Below are positions 2,722 to 39,039 of a stretch of DNA of 44,264 bases, in pieces. This DNA comes from Desulfurococcaceae archaeon (GTDB taxonomy: Archaea > Thermoproteota > Thermoprotei_A > Sulfolobales > NBVN01), in NCBI GenBank assembly GCA_020833255.1, contig JAJHQR010000005.1:1-44264 (forward strand). Direction: 5' to 3'. The translations under genes were made by a program, and so were the position numbers. The notes beneath the pieces are model-generated. The model was not told the DNA's origin. It did not search any database and worked only from the letters and a program-made list of their open reading frames with translations. Numbering within the stretch: the first letter of the stretch is position 1; every line of letters begins with the position of its first letter.

Positions 2722-3155
2722 GTACCACTCACCTCACACGCTCTCTCAAAAACCTCAGCCACCTTCTTAAGCGGTGTCCCCGGTGTGAGGACCTCGAAAA
2801 CCCCTAGCTTCTTCAGCTCCCCTACGTCCTCAGGAGGTATTATCCCTCCAACTATGACCGGTATGTTAACTCCTCGCTCCCTCAACAACTTAAGCAAGTC
2901 ATTAACGAGTTCTAGGTGTGAGCCGGAAAGTATGGAGACACCTATCGCGGCAACGTCCTCCTCCACAGCCGCTTCAGCCACGTCTTCAGGGGTTTTATGC
3001 ACGCCTAGATACACTACCTCAAACCCGGCGTCCCTTAAAGCTCTAGCAATGACCTTAGCGCCGCGGTCATGCCCGTCTAAACCGAGTTTAGAGACCAGAA
3101 CCTTCCTCCTAACACTCTTGGTTTGGGTTACGGCTTCAGACACCGATAAGGACAC
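2718..3155 (-). CDS. mcmA2: Methylmalonyl-CoA mutase, B12-binding (small) subunit
   Basis: A 145-residue cobalamin-binding domain with the DGHDRG motif (residues 27-32) that supplies the lower axial His, followed by the GxS segment GVSILSGSH and the GG segment [11 protein letters not shown]. It forms the holoenzyme with the catalytic subunit downstream. It is the first gene of the operon. TATA-like sequences lie at about 3163-3173 and 3183-3191. GTG 3155 and the in-frame GTG 3143 are both possible starts, and the choice only affects four N-terminal residues. Confidence 0.95.
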
Positions 3156-3233
3156 GTGACCCCCCTATATAATTAGCGACATAATCCTAATAAGAATTAG
3201 CGTTCGAGTTATGAAGACTTGACAAACCATACG

Positions 3234-4403
3234 TCAGAGGTCTTTGCTCACCATACAACATATGAAGAAACCCTCAGTGAGGTGTTTATGCGGGTGTAAA
3301 CGCATAAAGTAGCTGTGATGCTCGTAGGGCTCATAACCTTCTGAAGCCCATTGAATAGGCCTGTAAAACCTGACCTTCTCGGAAATCGTGTTAGCTACTT
3401 CCTCACCCTCCTCCGGCATCAGAGAGCAGGTTGAGTAGACCACTGTCTTACCTAATGATACGGACTTACTAATTAATTCTTTCTGCACGGCGGAGTAATA
3501 CCTTATTTTAGACTCCGTTAAGGTTATTTTAAGACCGGGGTCTTTAGATACAGCACCGCTATTACTGCACGGCGCGTCTAAGAGAACCTTATCGAAAACC
3601 TTCCTTAACTGTGTACTCCTTGAGTCGTTAACGATTACGTAGACCCTGCTTAAGTCAACCCCAAGCTTCCCTAATAGTTGACGCCCCAGCAAAGACCTCT
3701 TATAGCTTATGTCTACGGCAACGACTCTTGCCTTATTATCTGACAACATCATTATTAAGGAGGTCTTCATCCCCGGCGCGAAAGCCATGTCTAGAACGTC
3801 ATCTCCTGGTTGAGGGTTCAGCGCTTCCACGACCGCTACCGACGCTTTATCCTGCAATATTAACTCATAGTTTTTCACGGCGCTGAGGAGTCTGACCGGC
3901 TTAGGACTCTTGATTATCTGAAGTAAGTAAGGGTAGTTAGAGTCAACAACGTAATCAACGCCCTCACTACTCAAAGACCTCAAAACCTTCTCTTCAGAAG
4001 CTTTCAGGGTGTTGATCCTAGCCCATAAAACCCTCTTACTAAGAGATGTGAGGAGTTCACGCACCTCACCACCAACCAGACTAGAGAGTTTCTCGTAAAA
4101 CCAGCGACTAACGCCGTACCTACACCATTCGGGAAGACCCTCCTCGCTCACACCCCCCTCAACCCACGCTCTAGCATAACTGCTATAGCTCCTGCCAACC
4201 CCTAAGAAACACTTCACTTTAATGTAGTCAGAAATAAAATCCCTTGCCGCGTTGTATAGGGCCTCCCTCTCAGCCAAGCTCAGCTTACAGACACCCTTAC
4301 AAGCTCTCTTAAACGCTACGTCAACAGAGACCCTGTAGTTAACGACGTTGTAAAGAACTCTTGAAAGAACTTTAACTACTAAACGCTTACTAAGACCCTG
4401 CAA
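3234..4403 (-). CDS. NOL1/NOP2/Sun-family RNA m5C methyltransferase
   Basis: A class I SAM-dependent RNA cytosine-C5 methyltransferase. The SAM loop is LDMAFAPGMKTSL (about residues 203-215), the DAPCSNSG motif (about residue 273) carries the release Cys, and YSTCSLMPEEGE carries the nucleophilic Cys. The first 130 residues resemble the helical N-terminal domain of RsmB-type enzymes. The C-terminus (GFFICCMVSK) is typical. At 389 residues it is longer than the second family member at 22059. The start is TTG 4403. Whether the target is rRNA or tRNA cannot be told from the sequence. Confidence 0.9.
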   Translation of the reverse strand: MQGLSKRLVVKVLSRVLYNVVNYRVSVDVAFKRACKGVCKLSLAEREALYNAARDFISDYIKVKCFLGVGRSYSSYARAWVEGGVSEEGLPEWCRYGVSRWFYEKLSSLVGGEVRELLTSLSKRVLWARINTLKASEEKVLRSLSSEGVDYVVDSNYPYLLQIIKSPKPVRLLSAVKNYELILQDKASVAVVEALNPQPGDDVLDMAFAPGMKTSLIMMLSDNKARVVAVDISYKRSLLGRQLLGKLGVDLSRVYVIVNDSRSTQLRKVFDKVLLDAPCSNSGAVSKDPGLKITLTESKIRYYSAVQKELISKSVSLGKTVVYSTCSLMPEEGEEVANTISEKVRFYRPIQWASEGYEPYEHHSYFMRLHPHKHLTEGFFICCMVSKDL

Positions 4404-4512
4404 ACCGTCGCGCTCCGCGGCCGGAATCCCTGACCACTCCCTACAAAGTATTAACGGGCGCCGTTATGAATTCACTACACAAACCACTTAAGAGGTAGCT
4501 AAGTCGTGAGAG

Positions 4513-4573
4513 AATTTCTCAGTTCGTCGCGAGATCCTCACCCCTCAGTCTGGAGCGGCTACATCATCAAATT
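4513..4573 (-). ncRNA. Box C/D guide sRNA
   Basis: Read on the minus strand, this 61-nt element has every part of an archaeal C/D sRNA. There is a 5-bp terminal stem (AATTT at 4573-4569 with AAATT at 4517-4513). Box C is TTGATGA, or ATGATGT in a shifted register. Box D' is CTGA (4548-4545) and C' is TGAGGA (4540-4535) after a 4-nt gap. A 12-nt spacer follows, then D (CTGA, 4522-4519). A TATA-like TTAAGTTAATAA centred near 4598 would start transcription at about 4572. The D guide can pair over 10 nt with the 23S rRNA in this window and would direct 2'-O-methylation of the U at 24072 (about E. coli 2460). I found no target for the D' guide. Confidence 0.7.
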
Positions 4574-4618
4574 ACATCATCACTACAAACCTTATTAACT
4601 TAAGCTTCCTCAAACAGA

Positions 4619-5110
4619 TTACGCGGTCTCAGCATATCTCTTAGCTTTCTTGTAAGTGCCTGTGGTTCTCTCCGGGAATACCTGAGTTAAGAGTTCCTTC
4701 CTCTCTAAGTACGCTAAGGCAAGCAACACGCCCCACCTATAGTGATTCCTAACCCTGATCACCGCCTTCGAGGTTTTCTCGTTAAAGTATAGGACTCTCG
4801 GAGACGCCTCCGAGTACCCTCTCCTCCCGTATAACTCTATGAAGGCCTCGTCAATACGTTTCTGCAACTCATTAACGCTGATATTGCTTGAGCTAATCAG
4901 CCTCACAACCAAATACCTGTTCTTGTACTTCCTACGCTTCTCAATACTCTTAACGACGTGTCTCAAAACTTTCGAATTCAGGTTGCCTAGCACGTACCTA
5001 ATCTCACGCCGGAACATAATTAATTGAAGTAAAGCTATCACAGCGAGAATTAAAGCTACTGAAGCTACTACTAGGTAGACAGCCTCAAGCAACCCAGTCA
5101 AAACCAGCAC
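4619..5110 (-). CDS. rnp2: RNase P protein component 2 (Pop5) with N-terminal membrane segment
   Basis: A protein subunit of archaeal RNase P, which matures tRNA 5' ends. The Pop5 fold starts near residue 58 (KRRKYKNRYLVVRLIS) and includes the FIELYGRRGYSEASPRVLYF and VIRVRNHYRWGVLLAL segments. It follows the Rpp30 gene with a 26-nt overlap; Pop5 and Rpp30 form a known complex. The odd point is about 55 extra N-terminal residues, with a strongly hydrophobic stretch at residues 7-31 that reads as one transmembrane helix. The listed start is GTG 5110. Starting at the internal Met in the MFRREIRY segment would remove the helix, but no good ribosome-binding site marks either start. Confidence 0.88.
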   Translation of the reverse strand: MLVLTGLLEAVYLVVASVALILAVIALLQLIMFRREIRYVLGNLNSKVLRHVVKSIEKRRKYKNRYLVVRLISSSNISVNELQKRIDEAFIELYGRRGYSEASPRVLYFNEKTSKAVIRVRNHYRWGVLLALAYLERKELLTQVFPERTTGTYKKAKRYAETA

Positions 5111-23502: not shown

Positions 23503-23808
23503 GAGGAAAGCGTCGACATCGGGCTGTTGGGAGCGGCGGGCATACACCCCCGCCCCATCAAACCCGTCTTCTACGGGTGCCCTCCCCCCTCCCGGGAGAC
23601 CCGGGAGGGAACGGCCGCCTCTTTTCGGGGAGAGCTTCCCGCTTAGATGCTTTCAGCGGTTAGCTCCCACGGCGTAGCTGCCCGGCATGCCCTGCCGGAC
23701 AGCCGGTACACCATAGGCCGCGGCCTCCCGTTCCTTTCGTACTAGGGAGACCTTCCCCTCAGGCGGCCAACACCCCCCGTGGGTAGAGTCCGAGCTGTCT
23801 CACGACGC

Positions 23809-23842
<34 letters not shown>

Positions 23843-23845
23843 GGC

Positions 23846-23979
23846 TTGGGGAGGGGGGAGCGGCGCCGAGAAGCGTGAGGATTTAATTAACACTTCTCTC
23901 TGTTTCTAGGCCATCTTACGTTCACGTACATATTTCAACCCAATGCATAGGGTGTCTTAAAATGCGCCCTCACCCCCTT
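23846..23979 (-). other. 134-nt BHB intron in 23S rRNA after E. coli position 2552
   Basis: The conserved A-loop region is interrupted: GGGTGGGGCT is followed by 134 nt before GCCCGCCCATTAAAG resumes. The ends form a bulge-helix-bulge: central GGGG/CCCC, 5' bulge CTA, 3' bulge AAG, and an inner helix of AGGGGG, GAG and GGCGC with their complements. Splicing within the bulges rejoins the A-loop stem. The core is AT-rich and has no open frame long enough for an endonuclease. Confidence 0.85.
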
Positions 23980-24622
23980 AGCCCCACCCTTGGCGGCTGC
24001 TGCACCGCCAGGATGGGAAGAGCCGACATCGATGTAGCAAACCGCGGGGTCGATGGGGACTCTCGCCCGCGACGACCCTGTTATCCTCGGGGTAACTTTT
24101 CTGTCATGCCCGGCCCCCACTGAAGGGGGCACGAGCGTTCGCTAGGCCGCGGTTTCCCGACCAGACCCCTCACGATGCAGGGTCTGGTAAGGCCGGCTTT
24201 TGCCCTTGCACTCTACGGCGGAGTTCTGACCCACCTCTCGGCCCGTGGTAGCAGGATAAGATACTCCTACTAGCCACGGTGAGCCGACCTTTGGGCGCCC
24301 GTGTTACCTTTTCGCGGGCGTGCCGCCCCAGCCGAACCGCCCACCTGACGCTGTCCCCCGGGCTAACCCCGGGGTTAGACTCCCAGATCGCGGTAGGCGG
24401 TGTTTCACTTACGGCTCACCCGCTCCCGGAAGAGCGGGTTCATCGCCTCCCGCCTACACTACGCACCGCAACCCGGAAGCCAACGCCAGGCTGCGGTAAA
24501 GCTCCACGAGGTCTTCTCTCCCTACGGGGGGATGCCGGCCTGTGCACCGGCTCCGTGGGCTTCACGGGGACCCGGGCTGGGACAGTGGGGCCCTCGTTGA
24601 TCCATTCATGCGCGCCGGAACT

Positions 24623-24671
24623 CTCGGTGGTGGGGTCCCAGGATATGTTTTTAACTCAGGGACTCCCACCA
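24623..24671 (-). other. 49-nt intron in 23S rRNA after E. coli position 1952
   Basis: GCCTTGCCGGGTA and AGTTCCGGCGCGCAT, normally contiguous, are separated by 49 nt. The insert folds as a hairpin, TGGTGGG-A-GTCCC with GGGAC-CCCACCA, closed by a relaxed bulge-helix-bulge (3-bp central helix CGG/CCG). Exact removal restores the conserved sequence. This junction is the known homing site of I-DmoI. No endonuclease is encoded here. Confidence 0.85.
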
Positions 24672-25503
24672 TACCCGGCAAGGCATTTGGCTACCTTAAG
24701 AGGGTCAGAGTTACCCCCGGCCTTCAGCGGCGCTTCACCCGGTTGTACCCGGGCTTCACGTACCGCCAGTGGCCAGGATTCACCCCCCGTACTAACCCTT
24801 TCGGGCTAGCGGGGAGCTATGTTTTTATTAAACAGTCAGGACCCCCTAGTCACTGAGGCCCGCGGTTCCACGGGTTTTCCGCAGAACCGCAGGCACCCCT
24901 TCTCCCTAGGTTACGGGGCTAATTTGCCGAGTTCCCTAGCCCGGGTTAGACCCCACAGGCCTTGGGCTTCTCACCCAGGGGCACCTGTGTCGGTTCTCGG
25001 TACGGGCGCGGGGGATCGTTCCCGAACCCCTTTTCATGGGCGCCAAGGATCGGCCGAACCCCCTAACGGGGGCCATTCCCCCCTTCAGCCGGTTCTCACC
25101 ATTACGGTACTCCCCGGCCTTCGGGTGGTTAGCCGGGGCGACTGCCCCGGTCGGCCTACCTCGACGCGTCAGGGTTCGGGCTTGCGTTGCCGCACCTACC
25201 CCCGCGGCACGGGAATATTAACCCGTTTCCCTTTCGGCGACTCCGGTTAGGGGCCGCCTTAGGACCGGCTAACCCTCAGCTGACGACCGTTGCTGAGGAA
25301 CCCTGGCCCTTATGGCCGTGGGGATTCCCACCCCACTTTGCTGTTACTACCGCCGGGATCCGCACTCGGAGCGGGTCCACCGGACCTCACGGCCCGGCTT
25401 CTGCCCCACCCCGACGCCCTCCTACCGGATCACGACCTCAGTGAGGTCGTGCCCCGGGGTCTCGGCGGCCGGCTTAAGCCCCGACGTATTTTCGGGGCCC
25501 GCG

Positions 25504-25549
<46 letters not shown>

Positions 25550-26234
25550 TTAGGCCCACCTTCCCGCTGTCTTAGGCCGCGGACGCCCTTTACGCTTGGC
25601 ACTTAGCCGGCACTTAGGGGCCTTAACCCCGGTCTGGGTTGTTCCCCTCTCGGCCCCCAGGCTTACCCCGGGGAACCCCACTCCCGCCGTCTACGGTGGT
25701 CGCGGGTTCGGAGTTGGACTAGGGGTCCGGGGCCTTCCGGCCCACGGTGCCCCTAATCCGTAGCTCTACCCCGCGACCCACCTCGGGCGGGGCTGAGCTA
25801 AGACTCATGTCGGAGGGAACCAGCTATCACCGGGCTAGATTGGTCTTTTGCCCCTAGGCGGAGGTCATGGGAGCGAATTGCACGTCAGCACCCCTTCGGG
25901 CCTCCACCGGGGTTTCCCCCGGCTTCGCCCTACCCCCGCCTAGATCGCCCGGTTTCGGGTCTCACGGCAGTGACTCCGGGCCCTTGCAGACCCCGCCCCT
26001 CACGGGGATTGAACCCCGTTGCGGGCTTGTCGGTTTCCCTACGCCTCCGGGGTTAACCCCCTTAAGCTCGCCACTGCCGTGAACTCCCCGGCCCGTGTTT
26101 CAAGACGGACGGTGCGACCCCGGTCCACCCCCCTCGTACTCAACGGTCACCCGTTTTTCCTTCGGGGGGCTTCACTCCTTGCGAGCCGCACCGTGATTGG
26201 CCATCCGGTTTCAGGCTCTTTTCACCCCCCTCAC

Positions 26235-26265
<31 letters not shown>

Positions 26266-26780
26266 TAGTGCGCTATCGGTCTCGGGACGTATTTAGCCTT
26301 GGAGGTCAGTGACCCCCAGCTTCCCACGGCAAAACCAAGCCGTGGTACTCTAGCCCCCGGCAGGGGCCCCCACAGTTTCGCCTACGGGGCTATCACCCTC
26401 TGCGGCGGGGCTTTCCAGCCCACTTCGGCTACTGTGGGTCGGCCCCCCGGGCTCGAAGCCCAGCCGAGGGCTCGACAACACCACATCCCCGCCGACTCAT
26501 CGCCGGCGGGTTTGGTTTGGGCTAACCCCCTTTCGGTCGCCCCTACTCAGGGGATCCCGATTGGTTTCTTCTCCTCCCCCTACTAAGATGTTTCCGTTCG
26601 GGGGGTTCCCGACCCCTGAATGGGGTCGCCGGGGGCTGTTAACCCCCGGCAGGAAGTCCCATTCGGGGATCCCGGGTTCGACGGCTGCTTGCGCCTCCCC
26701 CGGGCATATCGCAGCTTGCCGCGCCCTTCCTCGGCGCCCGAGCCGAGCCATCCACCGGACGGCTTGGCGTCGACGCCTCA

Positions 26781-26929: not shown

Positions 26930-26993
<64 letters not shown>

Positions 26994-27051
26994 GAGGGAG
27001 GGTTCGACTCACCCTGCAGGAAACCCCGCAGAGCGAGCCTCACCCTCCCCC

Positions 27052-27110
<59 letters not shown>

Positions 27111-27172
27111 GTTGACGCGCGGTTACTAGGGATTCCTCGTTCACGAGGACGAGTTACAGTCCTCGATCCCAA

Positions 27173-27922
27173 CTACGGCGGGGTTTGAGGGATTGCCTCC
27201 CCCTTTCGGGTTCGGATCCCGCTGTCCCCGCCATTGTAGCCCGCGTGCAGCCCGGGGGTTTCCCGGCCGTGGTCCCGGGTAGGTAAGAAAGCGTAAGTAA
27301 AAATGCGATTCATTAAATAGGAGCTAACTTTTATTCTATCATCTTCTATCCTGGATAATCTTTCTTTATGAGCAGGGTTTTGTAGGTAGAGAGCTACAAT
27401 CCACGCATTTCTATCTATGTGTATTTCGTATCCATCTTTTTTATCGGCTTTACTGGTAATTATACCGAGGCTATGCAGTACCTGTCGCATCCAATCTCTG
27501 AGCTCTCTACTCTTTGTCTTTATTCCAATACGTAGGTAGTAGTATGTTTTTCCGTTGGCTTTCTTCTTGACTTGCTCTATCCAGCCATCTCCGTCTATGA
27601 ATCCAACAATATACCATAAGGGATCGCATCTGATGGGAGGTTTTAGCAAATATGATTTTTTACCAGTTCTTACACCATTACTGAGCAGATAGCTGTAGAA
27701 ATCCTTATCCCTCATCTTTATTTTCCATACACCCGCACTTCTATCGAAAAATACTGACGATATTTTGATATTGCTATTCCTAACAAACTCTACTAGCCAA
27801 TCAATAAATCTCCTGTCTTTTTGAGCCAGTGCTATACATCCATTACTCTCAAGATGTCCATCTGCGGCAATTAAGCCACACAAATAAGACCAAGAGTCCA
27901 AGATAGGATCACCAAGTCTCAA
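27173..27922 (-). CDS. Intron-encoded LAGLIDADG homing endonuclease
   Basis: A two-motif LAGLIDADG endonuclease: YLCGLIAADG (residues 13-22, catalytic Asp 21) and YIVGFIDGDG (residues 104-113, Asp 112). The spacing is typical of single-chain enzymes of the I-DmoI type. It lies in the 687-nt 16S intron. Counted from TTG 27922, codon 221 is the last in the intron; the remaining 28 codons run into the 3' exon of 16S rRNA and end at 27173-27175. No clear ribosome-binding site is seen. The coding region is much richer in A and T than the rRNA around it. The native protein probably ends near residue 215-221 or continues on circular intron RNA. Confidence 0.9.
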   Translation of the reverse strand: MRLGDPILDSWSYLCGLIAADGHLESNGCIALAQKDRRFIDWLVEFVRNSNIKISSVFFDRSAGVWKIKMRDKDFYSYLLSNGVRTGKKSYLLKPPIRCDPLWYIVGFIDGDGWIEQVKKKANGKTYYYLRIGIKTKSRELRDWMRQVLHSLGIITSKADKKDGYEIHIDRNAWIVALYLQNPAHKERLSRIEDDRIKVSSYLMNRIFTYAFLPTRDHGRETPGLHAGYNGGDSGIRTRKGEAIPQTPP

Positions 27923-27946
27923 ACAACTCGCCCAGGAACCACGGCT
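27260..27946 (-). mobile_element. 687-nt mobile BHB intron in 16S rRNA after E. coli position 1213
   Basis: Exon sequence CCCCGAA/ACCCCCGGGCT is split here. The transcript ends form a BHB: central CCCG/CGGG, AAA bulge on each strand, and an inner helix GCCGTGGT/ACCACGGC. The boundary lies within a repeated AAA, but the length is 687 nt whichever cut is used. It carries the LAGLIDADG gene and is therefore a potential homing element. Position 1213 is a recurrent archaeal intron site. Confidence 0.93.
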
Positions 27947-27954
27947 TTCGGGGC

Positions 27955-27984
27955 CTCAGCGGGGCTCTCATGAGAGAAGCCCCT
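27955..27984 (-). other. 30-nt mini-intron in 16S rRNA after E. coli position 1205
   Basis: GGTCAGCAT and GCCCCGAA should be contiguous but are separated by 30 nt. The transcript forms a compact BHB: central helix CAGC/GCTG, 5' bulge ATA, 3' bulge AGG, and a hairpin GGGGCT..AGCCCC capped by a self-complementary CTCTCATGAGAG. Cutting within both bulges restores the conserved sequence exactly. The element is almost nothing but the splicing motif. It is 8 nt from the next intron. Confidence 0.92.
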
Positions 27985-28083
27985 ATGCTGACCTGCCGTG
28001 GCCCCCTCCTTCCTCCGCCTTAAACGGCGGCAGTCCCCCTAGTGTGCCCCAGTCCCGAAGGACTGGGTAGCAACTAGGGGCAG

Positions 28084-28239
<156 letters not shown>

Positions 28240-28354
28240 CTGGCGACGGCCATGCACCTCCTCTCAGCGCGTCCGGCAAGGTCGTTAGCCTGGCCATCAT
28301 CCTGCTGTCGCCCCCGGTAAGATTCCGGGCGTTGACTCCAATTGAGCCGCAGGC

Positions 28355-28398
<44 letters not shown>

Positions 28399-28504
28399 CC
28401 TTGCGGCCGTACTCCCCAGGCGGCGGGCTTAACGGCTTCCCTGCGGCACTGGACGGGCTCTAAGCCCGTCCAACACCTAGCCCGCATCGTTTACAGCCGG
28501 GACT

Positions 28505-28581
<77 letters not shown>

Positions 28582-28800
28582 CGGCTTTCGCCCCTCACCG
28601 TCAGGCGCGTTCCAGCCGGCCGCCTTCGCCACTGGTGGTCCTCCCGGGATCAGCGGATTTCGCCCCTACCCCGGGAGTACCGCCGGCCTCTCCCGCCCTC
28701 TAGCCCGGCAGTATCCCCCCCGGCCCGGGGTTGAGCCCCGGGTTTTAAGGGAGGACTTACCGGGCCGGCTACGGGCGCTTTAGGCCCAATAACCGTCCCA

Positions 28801-28841
<41 letters not shown>

Positions 28842-28969
28842 ACTTGCCCCCCGCTTATTCCCCCTCCATCTTACGGAGGGGAAAAGCCCCTCTTCGGGGC
28901 ACTCGGGGTGACCCCGTCACGGTTTCCCGCATTCCGCTAGGGAGTCTTGTGACCCCCTATTTGCGGAGT

Positions 28970-29013
<44 letters not shown>

Positions 29014-29020
29014 GGCCCAT

Positions 29021-29059
<39 letters not shown>

Positions 29060-29225
29060 CTTGGCGGGCCGTTACCCCGCCAACTACCTGATGGGCCGTG
29101 GCCCCATCCTCGGGCGGTGGCGCGGACATCCCCGCACCACCCTTTCGGTGAGGAACCCTTCCAGGCCTCCTCACCTATCGGGGATCAGCCCCAGTTTCCC
29201 GGGGTTGTCCCCGTCCCGAGGGTAG

Positions 29226-29260
<35 letters not shown>

Positions 29261-29354
29261 CGGTTGCCGAGGCGTGCGACTTCCATGGCTTAGCCTCACC
29301 CCGATAGCGGTTGGGTCCGGCAGGATCAACCGGAATCGCGGCCGCAAGGCCGCG

Positions 29355-35982: not shown

Positions 35983-36543
35983 GTGAGTTGCTTGAGCGTT
36001 TTGCTAGACCTGTTTCTAGAGTTCCTGAAGGTAGGGTTTTTCATGTTCGGCGGTGGTTACGCAGGCATAGCACTCCTACATAAGGAGTTAGTCGAGCTTA
36101 GGGGGTGGCTCACGGACGAGGAATTCGTTGACGTGATAGGCATAGCTGAGAGTACTCCGGGCCCCATAGCCATAAACTCAGCTACCTTCATAGGCTACAA
36201 GATATGCGGTGTTTTAGGGTCGGTAGTAGCTACCTTAGGGGTGGTGCTCCCAGCGTATTTAGTCATACTAAGCATCGCGATGGGTTTATCACCCTACTTA
36301 ACGACGCCTATAGCTAAAACCATATTGAGGGGGATTAACGCCGCCGTCGTAGCGCTAATATTGGTAGCTCTGCTAAGAGTAGGTAACACTGTATTAATTC
36401 ACGACAACACGATAAGGATTGTTGAGGCAGCGATCTTCGTCATCGCGCTCGCGCTAATCCTGTTACTAAAGCAACACCCGATAACGGTCATAGGAGTCTC
36501 GGTAGCGTTAAGTCTCTTAGCTAAGTACCTGCTAGGCATTTAA
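35983..36543 (+). CDS. Single-domain chromate transporter family protein (ChrA)
   Basis: A 186-residue CHR-domain membrane protein with about six hydrophobic segments. FFMFGGGYAGIALLHKELVE, GWLTDEEFVDVIGIAESTPGP and INSATFIGYK are CHR signatures. Short-chain CHR proteins usually come as adjacent pairs encoding oppositely oriented halves, but no partner is nearby. The substrate may be chromate or sulfate, and is not certain. GACTTAAATTA at about 35951-35961 predicts a leaderless mRNA starting at GTG 35983. Confidence 0.88.
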   Translation: MSCLSVLLDLFLEFLKVGFFMFGGGYAGIALLHKELVELRGWLTDEEFVDVIGIAESTPGPIAINSATFIGYKICGVLGSVVATLGVVLPAYLVILSIAMGLSPYLTTPIAKTILRGINAAVVALILVALLRVGNTVLIHDNTIRIVEAAIFVIALALILLLKQHPITVIGVSVALSLLAKYLLGI

Positions 36544-36570
36544 TGAGGGTTTCTCGAACATGTTAATGTG

Positions 36571-36646
<76 letters not shown>

Positions 36647-36669
36647 CCACCTAATTCTTACTACTCAAG

Positions 36670-36679
36670 CTCTTAAATC
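36670..36679 (-). promoter_or_regulatory. TATA box of tRNA-Ala
   Basis: GATTTAAGAG on the minus strand, centred 28-29 nt from the first tRNA base. Confidence 0.7.
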
Positions 36680-36738
36680 GTTTTCGGGAGACTAAACCGA
36701 CTACACCGCCTTTTGCAACTGTGTAGAGTTTCGTAAAG

Positions 36739-36748
36739 GTTTATTAGG
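36739..36748 (+). promoter_or_regulatory. Promoter of the 36771 structured RNA
   Basis: GTTTATTAGG preceded by purine-rich GTAAAG (BRE-like). A spacing of 26-28 nt predicts transcription starting at the run of G at 36771, which is exactly where the folded element begins. Confidence 0.6.
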
Positions 36749-36770
36749 GGTTGTTGGTGCTTTCTTTACT

Positions 36771-37030
36771 GGGGGACGCCTCGAGATGCGGGTTTAATGT
36801 AGAGACCTGAGAGAGGCGTCTTCGGGGGGCCAGGATGCGGGGGTTTTCCCCACAGCGATGAACCTGAGAAGACGATGAAGGAGGAGCTGTGGGTAGGGGT
36901 TACCCTGAGCGGGCGGAGCCCGATGAAGCGGATCCCAATGAAAAGAGATCCCGAGGGCGATGAAGCCAAGGGGGAGGGCTTGACGCCAAACAATATCAAG
37001 CCCGATGAAACCCAAACCCCTTGCTCGGGC
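36771..37030 (+). ncRNA. Candidate structured RNA with repeated kink-turn motifs, family unknown
   Basis: The 386-nt gap between tRNA-Ala and the MoeA-like gene has no plausible coding sequence but strong structure. Helices seen: GACGCCTC/GAGGCGTC (36775-36782 with 36813-36820), CCCACAGC/GCTGTGGG (36849-36856 with 36886-36893), CGGGC/GCCCG (36910-36922), GGC..AGCC/GGCT..GCC (36956-36987), and GCCCGA/TCGGGC (37000-37005 with 37025-37030). CGATGAA occurs five times, at 36856, 36873, 36921, 36958 and 37003, with CTGA or TTGA opposite (36864, 36905, 36980). This is the GA/GA pattern of kink-turns and kink-loops that bind L7Ae. The spacers are too short for C/D guides. It lacks RNase P RNA and SRP RNA signature sequences. 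Confidence 0.6.
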
Positions 37031-37032
37031 CC

Positions 37033-39024
37033 TCATTCTGCGAGAACCTTACCTGTCTTCGGGTACGTCTTATAGCCTACGTACCTACTCAGTATCTCCT
37101 TTATTTTCTCGCTGTTAAGTAGGTCGAGCATCTTACGTATGGGTTCCTTACCTAAGCTGTCCTTAAGTATTACGAGGTCATACACTTCCTCACCTACTTT
37201 AATGAATTCCAGCCCGTACGTTTCGGCAGCGTGCCTGACCCCAACCCCTACGTCCGCCCTCCCCTGAAGCACTGCCACAGCCACCCCGCTATGCGTTTTA
37301 GCCTCGTTTAAGTACCCCTTAACAACCCTCGGTATCTCGCCAGGGTTTATTCCCAGCTCCCTCGCAGCCATCCTCAAGTTAATGTCTACGAGGGTTCTAG
37401 TCCCGGAACCCTTATTCCTGTTTATGAAGACCACGTCCTCCCTGAATAAGTCTTTAAACGACCTTATGTTTTTAGGGTTGTTCCTAGGCAGTATAAACCC
37501 TATCTCCCTAACCCAACCACCCACTAAGACAGCCCTGCCCGACAAGTTCAGCTTCTTAAAGTACGGTATGTTATACTCACCGCTCTCCTCGTCGAGGAGG
37601 TGCGCGCCACTTAAATCAGCCTCACCCCTACCAACTGCTAGGAGACCTCCCAGAGACCCAGCATTAATTAACTTGTAGTTAGGTCCCTCAACAACCAGCC
37701 TAATCAACTCGTCAATCACGTAGTCGTGACTACCTATGAATACTAGGTCCGGAACCCTCCAGAACCTCCTAAAAAGCTTCACAACCACCTCACTACCCTC
37801 ATCGATCACCAAGGTGTCTTCAGGCACCTCGATAAACCCGTCAGTATACGTCAAAACCCTGATAGACCCTGAGGGGGTTAAGACGGGGTAGGCCGTCAAC
37901 ACGTTCCCCCTCCTTACTAGAGCGACAGGAACTAACGCTGTCCTCCCCCTAACACCTAAGACTTTCTGAAGTACGACGGCCTTAACCTCGGACCAACCCC
38001 AGTAGCTCGCCGGGATCCCGGCAAGCCTGGAAATCACTGGGGCTACCACAGACCTGAAAATCATAGCTGCTGAGAGGGGGAATCCCGGGAGACCGAACAC
38101 TAGCTTCCCGTTAATCACTGCTACGATGGTAGGCTTTCCCGGCTTAACCTTCAGTCCGTGAACCACTATCCCCGGCTCGCCGAGGCTCTCGATAACCCTG
38201 TAGGTGAGGTCCCCGAGCCCGGCCGACGTCCCCCCAGCAGTGATGACCACGTCATTCTCCTCCAGAGCTCTCCTCAAGACCTCCCTCAAGGAATCCTCGT
38301 CATCCGGTACTATACCGTAGAATTGAGGTACGGCACCTAACTCAGCTAATGAGGAGGTAACGTAGTGTGATGAGATCTCGAATATTTTGTAGTCTTGGGG
38401 AAGACCTTCCTCAACACTAACTAGCTCCGAACCTACCGAGACAACGCCGACCCTCGGCTTAACGAAGACTTTAACCCTGCTCACGCCGGCGGCGGCCAGG
38501 GTCGCTAGCTCTGCAGGCCCTAGCAAAGTACCCCTACGGAGAACTAGCTCCCCCCTCATGATGTCGGAACCCGCTCTAGCCACGTTATCCCCCGGAGCTA
38601 CGGAAGCGTAGACGTAGACGTGCTCGCCAACCCTCCTACTATACTCAACCATGACCACAGAGTCAGCACCCCTAGGTATGGCTGCACCAGTATCTACCTC
38701 GACAGCTTCCCCAACACCTACCTCAGTATCCGGAGGGTAGCCTACCCTGACCGAGCCCTTAAGCCTTAGCTTAGCAGGCGCGTCCTCCTCAACACCGATC
38801 AACGAGATAGAGTTGACGGCATAACCGTCTACCTCAGACCTGTCGAAAGGCGGGTAATCGTAAACAGCGTAAACATCCTCCGCTAAAACCCTGCCCAACC
38901 CCTCACGCAGACCAACCCACTCAAAACCCAGAGGCCTTAACTCAACGTATGATGAGATAATACTCAATACCTCGTCAAGCCTGCGGAGCTCATGGAAAAT
39001 CTTCCTCAACCAAATCACCAACAT
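37033..39024 (-). CDS. moeA: MoeA-type molybdopterin biosynthesis protein fused to a substrate-binding-like domain
   Basis: Residues 1-400 are MoeA, which inserts the metal into molybdopterin: DYPPFDRSEVDGYAV, DTGAAIPRGADSVVMVE, VITAGGTSAGLGD and VFGLPGFPLSAAMIF. Residues from about 420 (VFIGSHDYVIDELIRL to the end) form a periplasmic-binding-protein-like domain (COG1910) without a signal peptide. This fusion is known in archaea; the second domain may sense molybdate or tungstate. I take ATG 39024 because the TATA box at 39040-39048 predicts transcription from about 39018; the frame is open to 39036. It serves tungsten/molybdenum enzymes. Confidence 0.9.
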   Translation of the reverse strand: MLVIWLRKIFHELRRLDEVLSIISSYVELRPLGFEWVGLREGLGRVLAEDVYAVYDYPPFDRSEVDGYAVNSISLIGVEEDAPAKLRLKGSVRVGYPPDTEVGVGEAVEVDTGAAIPRGADSVVMVEYSRRVGEHVYVYASVAPGDNVARAGSDIMRGELVLRRGTLLGPAELATLAAAGVSRVKVFVKPRVGVVSVGSELVSVEEGLPQDYKIFEISSHYVTSSLAELGAVPQFYGIVPDDEDSLREVLRRALEENDVVITAGGTSAGLGDLTYRVIESLGEPGIVVHGLKVKPGKPTIVAVINGKLVFGLPGFPLSAAMIFRSVVAPVISRLAGIPASYWGWSEVKAVVLQKVLGVRGRTALVPVALVRRGNVLTAYPVLTPSGSIRVLTYTDGFIEVPEDTLVIDEGSEVVVKLFRRFWRVPDLVFIGSHDYVIDELIRLVVEGPNYKLINAGSLGGLLAVGRGEADLSGAHLLDEESGEYNIPYFKKLNLSGRAVLVGGWVREIGFILPRNNPKNIRSFKDLFREDVVFINRNKGSGTRTLVDINLRMAARELGINPGEIPRVVKGYLNEAKTHSGVAVAVLQGRADVGVGVRHAAETYGLEFIKVGEEVYDLVILKDSLGKEPIRKMLDLLNSEKIKEILSRYVGYKTYPKTGKVLAE

Positions 39025-39039
39025 TACATACAGCAAACA

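Follow-up and report, generated by a model that had tools for sequence, protein, structure and literature searches.

A multi-copy archaeal RNA with kink-turn motifs, very probably the omegaRNA of an IS607 transposon carried by solo elements

TnpB is an RNA-guided DNA cutter and the ancestor of Cas12. The IS607 TnpB and its reRNA have been characterized in bacteria, where they form an RNA-guided nuclease with an reRNA of ~150–187 nt that ends in the flank of the element (PMC10711439, PMC11061315). A possible kink-turn and an E-loop have been reported in bacterial IS607 reRNA under the name RAGATH-18 (ISFba1, ISXfa1); 64% of the RAGATH-18 RNAs adjoin an IS607 TnpB, so the remainder do not (PMC11061315, PMC10711439). 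In archaea, MITEs of ~260 nt were seen in 14 copies beside the IS607 elements of Staphylothermus marinus in 2009 (PMC2678158), and the Sulfolobus MITEs SMN1 and SM3A are known (PMC3718332). One of the genomes compared here (G111) holds matching repeats of ~260 bp.

The window analyzed here, a 44,264-nt stretch of DNA from a Desulfurococcaceae archaeon, contains a 310-bp segment that is very probably an IS607-derived solo omegaRNA (reRNA) element. On the best reading of the sequence comparisons, it is a non-autonomous IS607 element (MITE) from which tnpA and tnpB have been deleted, leaving the omegaRNA of the parent as its only cargo. The original prediction had placed a structured RNA at 36771–37030; the structured RNA was borne out, but its limits were not, because the true unit spans 36711–37020, which makes it longer on the 5′ side and ends it exactly at 37020. 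The ends of the element and its surroundings are as follows.

36708 to 36710, + strand: GCC next to the left end, the putative IS607 insertion site with the core dinucleotide and the probable TAM of TnpB
36711 to 37020, + strand: complete solo element of 310 bp, with both ends as in the autonomous element on contig C14 of the same genome (G000) and an empty site in three congeners
36740 to 36747, + strand: predicted TATA box TTTATTAG, which aligns with GTTTTCATGAAGGTTTATAAGGGTTG upstream of tnpA at the parent locus (L021) and with other solo copies
37014 to 37020, + strand: right end of the transposon, AAACCCC, which is also the 3′ end of the scaffold; A[AG]CCCC is near-invariant and the next base is random
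37021 to 37040, + strand: predicted guide TTGCTCGGGCCCTCATTCTG, host DNA at the right flank, positioned according to omegaRNA/reRNA anatomy (PMC10711439, PMC8612924)

Sequence comparison established the ends and the insertion of this element. The left end of the window copy, TTTTGCAACTG.., begins at 36711 and matches the left end of the parent, whereas the same spacer between a tRNA-Ala gene and a MoeA-like gene lacks the 310 bp in three congeners (G001, G002, and G003) and thus represents the empty site. In 63 of 78 copies (counted by eye), GCC immediately preceded the left end or stood within 1–2 nt of it on that side, and the sequence beyond varied; in the IS607 copies compared, the left junction read CC/GCC and the right end CCCC. 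This GCC would suit a crossover at CC and is the probable TAM. On the right, the repeat stops exactly at AACCCC (37020), and the sequence that follows was different in all 86 copies with a readable end. The MoeA-like protein is encoded at 37033–39036 on the − strand, and its C-terminal part resembles a ligand-binding domain of the PBP type. Between the stop codon of this gene and the right end of the element there are 13 bp, which makes the predicted guide overlap the end of the gene. A fitting promoter had been proposed for the RNA, and the TATA-like TTTATTAG does lie ~25 nt upstream of 36771; it is predicted to be the tnpA promoter of the parental left end, now situated just upstream of the RNA. 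In the solo copies of another genome (G037), such as L026, L030, and L036, a second TATA-like box (TTATATAAGC) occurs in the interval between the left end and the first hairpin of the RNA, and may serve the solo RNA as a new promoter; other lineages lack it.

Elsewhere in the window, the 16S rRNA gene (26932–29336, − strand) measures 2405 bp against a model of 1478 positions, which implies ~0.9 kb of insertion. A 249-amino-acid ORF inside this gene (27173–27922, − strand) resembles a LAGLIDADG-type homing endonuclease of an rRNA intron. The 23S rRNA match (23507–26779, − strand) exceeds its model by ~290 bp, possibly because of another intron or an expansion.

The parent of the solo element was found intact on contig C14 of the same genome (L021), with the left end, the TATA box, tnpA at 2879–3493, tnpB at 3459–4772, and the RNA at 4598–4787, overlapping the 3′ end of tnpB. 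Its TnpA is a serine recombinase with an N-terminal MerR-type HTH (Resolvase + HTH), scoring 228.7 bits against a cut-off of 110 with the NCBIfam IS607 transposase equivalog NF033518, and tnpB follows downstream of tnpA, as in other IS607 elements. The TnpB carries the Pfam TNB domain (the C-terminal domain of TnpB/Cas12f, Cas12f1-like) above its cut-off, although it falls below the cut-offs of NCBIfam itself (57 bits against 100). The RuvC residues D210, E290, and D366 and the zinc cysteines 341, 344, 358, and 361 did not vary among 14 TnpBs, the most divergent at 36% identity. In a Foldseek search with a low-confidence structural model, in which the N-terminal half is good and the RuvC half poor, the best ranks went to Cas12f, the ISFba1 TnpB (IS607), and Fanzor2 (E = 1e-8 to 1e-6). 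By its sequence, this protein is a divergent TnpB, and its nuclease activity is putative. The window copy retains its left end (with the tnpA promoter), a hairpin descended from the first codons of the zinc ribbon, and the RNA core, whereas tnpA and nearly all of tnpB are gone. The locus is non-coding, as originally stated, but a remnant of the C-terminal TnpB frame is still legible at 36839–36982, with 83% identity to TnpB residues 383–430. At several loci, translation of the stretch immediately 5′ of the RNA gives the TnpB zinc ribbon, TCPRCG..V.TRVGR.FKCPRCGFELDRQKLASINIYLK.

Because the repeat is dispersed, and because the parent locus combines an IS607 tnpA, a TnpB, and an overlapping RNA, the RNA is assigned to the omegaRNAs (reRNAs) of an archaeal IS607 element. 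Its anatomy agrees with this assignment, in that a structured RNA lies at the right end, in the same orientation as tnpB, and stops at the transposon boundary; the solo copies likewise have the properties of MITEs, with both ends in common with the autonomous copy, the genes gone, multiple copies, and known empty sites. In its own genome, the element has four or five copies (the window copy, those on contigs C9, C40, and C14, and a fragment on C47), the full ones being 89–90% identical, and relatives contain 17 (G003), 11 (G009), 10 (G018), and 18 (G037) matches. Counting as solo those copies with <60 amino acids of tnpB upstream and ≥600 bp of flank available, 61 of the 95 sampled copies were solo, whereas 18 adjoined at least 250 amino acids of tnpB, and many genomes contained one or two parents together with many solo copies. 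A single scan of the genome contigs gave two loci only. Of 214 genomes of the order, 64 gave matches to the covariance model, among them genomes of the large-genome family f11, and the RNA was multi-copy there; across the phylum, the model matched 63 of 398 sampled genomes, the hits outside the order being weaker and putative members of the family.

The stable fold that had been claimed for the 260-nt stretch was confirmed (−106.5 kcal/mol; z = −3.1; none of 200 shuffles was as low). Taken separately, the 5′ hairpin (36771–36828) and the hairpin at 36849–36895 had z values of −4.3 and −5.1, respectively, and the other two were weaker (−1.3 and −2.1). The predicted elements of the scaffold are listed below.

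36771 to 37020, + strand: predicted omegaRNA (reRNA) scaffold, from the low folding energy, the covariation, and covariance model R1, which finds its core at 36831–37023 (E = 1.1e-46)
36772 to 36823, + strand: P1 hairpin, left over from the zinc-ribbon code of TnpB; its internal loop, GAU-G-C / GA, resembles a kink-turn, and the hairpin aligns with the ..TCPRCG..VKTRVGR.. code of tnpB
36849 to 36893, + strand: helix H1 with predicted kink-turn K1, from conservation and covariation; bulge GAU at 36857–36859, GA at 36860–36861 facing GA at 36884–36885
36896 to 36905, + strand: short hairpin H2 (GGG-GUUA-CCC), 96.8% paired and nearly invariant
36918 to 36958, + strand: predicted kink-turn K2; C-stem GCCC/GGGC, bulge GAU at 36922–36924, GA at 36925–36926 facing GA at 36953–36954, NC stem 36930–36936/36945–36951
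36970 to 37013, + strand: predicted kink-turn K3; C-stem GGGCTTGA at 36976–36983 and TCAAGCCC at 36996–37003, bulge GAU at 37004–37006, GA at 37007–37008 facing GA at 36974–36975, NC stem GGG/CCC at 36970–36972/37011–37013

Covarying helices in homologues, which had been named as support for the RNA, were found with the covariance model. The working structure was drawn by hand from complementary changes and applied to 25 copies and then to 95 copies aligned by the model; 91% of the cells paired, and two-sided changes occurred in 28 of 38 pairs. There were 291 cells with two-sided changes against 103 in shuffles, none of 500 shuffles attained any of the five measures, and pairing dropped to 53% or less when the structure was slid along the alignment. 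The 95-row alignment leans towards the structure because it was fitted to the covariance model, whereas the 25-row MAFFT alignment is free of this bias, though the structure was drawn from those same sequences. RNAalifold gave a poor consensus on the raw MAFFT alignment of 51 copies because decayed and shortened copies were included.

All five exact CGATGAA copies that had been noted are present on the + strand (36856, 36873, 36921, 36958, and 37003), and the heptamer occurs eight times on the two strands of the whole window, against 2.74 expected (none of 100 shuffles reached eight). Only ATGA is conserved among the copies, not the full heptamer. Three strongly conserved motifs (TGA 81–100%, opposing GA 89–99%) mean that the kink-turn reading holds for three of the five: those at 36856, 36921, and 37003 are the bulge strands of K1, K2, and K3, whereas the one at 36873 lies in a variable apical loop and the one at 36958 in a joining strand. 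In 95 copies, the TGA of K1 was conserved at 98/100/98% and its GA at 96/96%, and the two occurred together in 76; helix H1 was 96.4% paired, with two-sided changes in seven pairs. The hairpin 36849–36893 thus retains its kink-turn, but not the kink-loop once proposed above it, as the apical part is of variable length and some lineages lack it. K2 (TGA 81/99/97%, GA 89/99%) had two-sided changes in all seven NC-stem pairs, and pair 141–186 of its C-stem was AU in 31 copies, CG in 31, and GC in 21. In the copies of family f11 it reads as a near-textbook kink-turn, AAG-GAU-GA-GCGGAGCA..UGCUCCGU-GA-CUU. K3 (TGA 96/97/99%, GA 93/96%) had two-sided changes in eight of nine C-stem pairs and is unformed in the shortened copies of G003, G018, and G035. 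For all three, a conserved motif and stems that mostly covary point to kink-turns, and P1 carries a fourth, looser, kink-turn-like motif. L7Ae is the core protein of the archaeal box C/D and H/ACA particles and is abundant in the host. Its gene is present in this genome, and it possibly loads onto the RNA. Our literature search returned no relevant publication linking L7Ae and TnpB, and "kink-turn" and "TnpB" appeared together only in the RAGATH-18 study.

From these features, we infer that the solo RNA is transcribed, guided by its own flank, and loaded in trans, with a possible role for L7Ae. The left-end promoter, which formerly drove tnpA, would now drive the solo RNA directly. TnpA from an autonomous copy would recombine the conserved ends and transfer a solo element to another location with a CC dinucleotide (flank GCC). 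A transcript starting at about 36771 would continue beyond the right end into host sequence, and its final ~16–20 nt would thereby become a guide for that insertion site. The TnpB, intact on C14 with its RuvC D-E-D kept, would bind this RNA and cut element-free copies of the site next to GCC, after which repair from the occupied copy would restore the element; cutting of element-free chromosomes would favor its persistence, in line with the homing model published for TnpB elements. The kink-turns would shape the scaffold, and L7Ae may bind them. On balance, we favor the view that the solo copies work as guides in trans to TnpB.

The strongest competitor, which we consider somewhat improbable yet well worth weighing, is that the solo copies are plain MITEs or relics, carried only for their transposon ends, with a fold left over from the parental omegaRNA and no working guide. 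Its parentage is the same as that of the preferred explanation, and the sole difference is whether the solo RNA works. The S. marinus repeats provide a precedent within the order, and some copies have decayed. Compensatory changes in the core showed no excess over shuffles among the solo copies of single genomes, so selection on the core after the deletion is unsupported and the pairing of P1 is the sole sign of that kind. Against this rival, P1 still pairs although it is non-coding and lies away from the transposon end, with lineage-specific changes that keep the pairing in 33 solo copies (none of 2000 random re-pairings of the arms attained the observed pairing). The solo copies have also retained the promoter directly upstream, and in most of them the kink-turn residues are intact. 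One genome (G068) contains ~12 copies of the RNA and tnpB only as broken fragments, from which it follows that copies can persist as relics; there, the solo RNAs may have outlived their nuclease or may be served by another TnpB.

A domesticated guide bank, in which the host would use TnpB and the dispersed guides for regulation or defence, seems quite improbable to us. It is suggested by genomes where an intact tnpB and numerous solo RNAs occur together and a cognate tnpA is lacking, namely G037 (one intact tnpB of 443 amino acids and 18 sampled copies without tnpB) and G018 (tnpB and seven copies without any tnpB remnant). In both genomes, which are rich in solo RNAs, there is a locus (L025 on G037:C6 and L061 on G018:C11) with an intact tnpB and no tnpA between the left end and tnpB. 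New jumps in these genomes would need another transposase, since no close tnpA is present. However, the 86 right flanks all differ and resemble plain insertion-site DNA, and a search for shared or recurring guides among these copies found none. The first 16 nt of the window guide have a single occurrence in their own genome, namely the guide itself, with up to two mismatches allowed. Plasmid and phage records gave no match to the element, and a pattern from its most conserved stretch gave 26 matches in viral contigs, none of them a true copy according to the covariance model. With tnpB lacking tnpA in G037 and G018, and copies lacking an intact tnpB in G068, a function in trans cannot be generalized.

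The stand-alone host RNA of the original prediction, built to bind several copies of L7Ae independently of any transposon, is now very improbable. The three conserved kink-turn motifs, the fourth-like one in P1, and the L7Ae gene agree with it, but this RNA also makes up the right end of IS607 elements, where it overlaps tnpB, and it is patchy, multi-copy, dispersed, and inserted, with a 3′ end that abuts a different host sequence in each copy. An H/ACA or other modification guide RNA, the alternative offered at the time, can practically be dismissed. The multi-hairpin shape and the kink-turns agree with it, with only a sub-threshold match to a trypanosome H/ACA RNA on the opposite strand (20.6 bits against 60), but the element ends and insertion sites give a full explanation. 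No Rfam family matched at threshold; a significant match to one had been named as a refutation of the original prediction. H/ACA, RNase P, and SRP gave no family match, in keeping with the absence of RNase P and SRP signatures noted originally, and at E ≤ 10 only tRNA and chance matches appeared. The RAGATH-18 model had no match at its gathering threshold in the window, the parent locus, or the other copies, nor at E up to 10 in 36540–37300.

With the IS607 omegaRNA as the preferred reading, an unknown archaeal RNA family, multi-copy across the phylum and absent from Rfam, is assigned to the TnpB guide RNAs, and putative MITEs of hyperthermophiles would be explained as solo guide-RNA genes. 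The identity of this family, its kink-turn-rich scaffold, and MITEs that are solo guide-RNA units with a promoter all appear to be new. Solo guide-RNA genes may represent an intermediate between transposon nucleases with one guide and CRISPR systems with many, and conserved kink-turns in a guide RNA make a part for L7Ae in an RNA-guided nuclease directly testable. A more far-reaching proposal, which we regard as speculative and rather unlikely as a whole, is that L7Ae is a structural subunit of an archaeal IS607-type TnpB omegaRNA with three or four kink-turns, and that the one TnpB of each genome draws in trans on a scattered bank of solo omegaRNAs, which number up to ~18 and each have a promoter and a guide of their own.

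Compared with the kink-turn RNAs bound by L7Ae (box C/D, H/ACA, RNase P, and SRP; PMC5539422), the window RNA has the same 3-nt bulge, tandem GA facing GA, and two stems, but it lacks a guide-box architecture and belongs to a transposon, and its L7Ae binding is putative. The solo elements resemble the archaeal MITEs in being short and non-autonomous and in having a related transposon in the same genome, and the S. marinus repeats are linked to IS607; in the accessible portions of those reports, however, the S. marinus and Sulfolobus MITEs are presented as ORF-less DNA repeats, not as omegaRNAs (PMC2678158, PMC3718332). As with the omegaRNAs of IS200/IS605 TnpB, including that of the archaeal SisTnpB1 (PMC8612924, PMC10640517), the RNA overlaps the 3′ end of tnpB, stops at the right end, and would take its guide from the flank, whereas the recombinase is a serine enzyme here and a Y1 transposase there, and the flank is GCC here and an AT-rich TAM (TTTAA/TTTAT) there. 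With RAGATH-18 and the bacterial IS607 reRNA, the window RNA shares its position at the right end of an IS607 element (serine-recombinase TnpA and TnpB), a scaffold of ~190–250 nt, and a predicted guide in the right flank. It differs in its flank (GCC here, AGGAG/GAGGG/GGG there), in its overlap with the tnpB code, of which the RAGATH-18 reRNA is independent, in its three or four predicted kink-turns, and in its archaeal, phylum-wide distribution.
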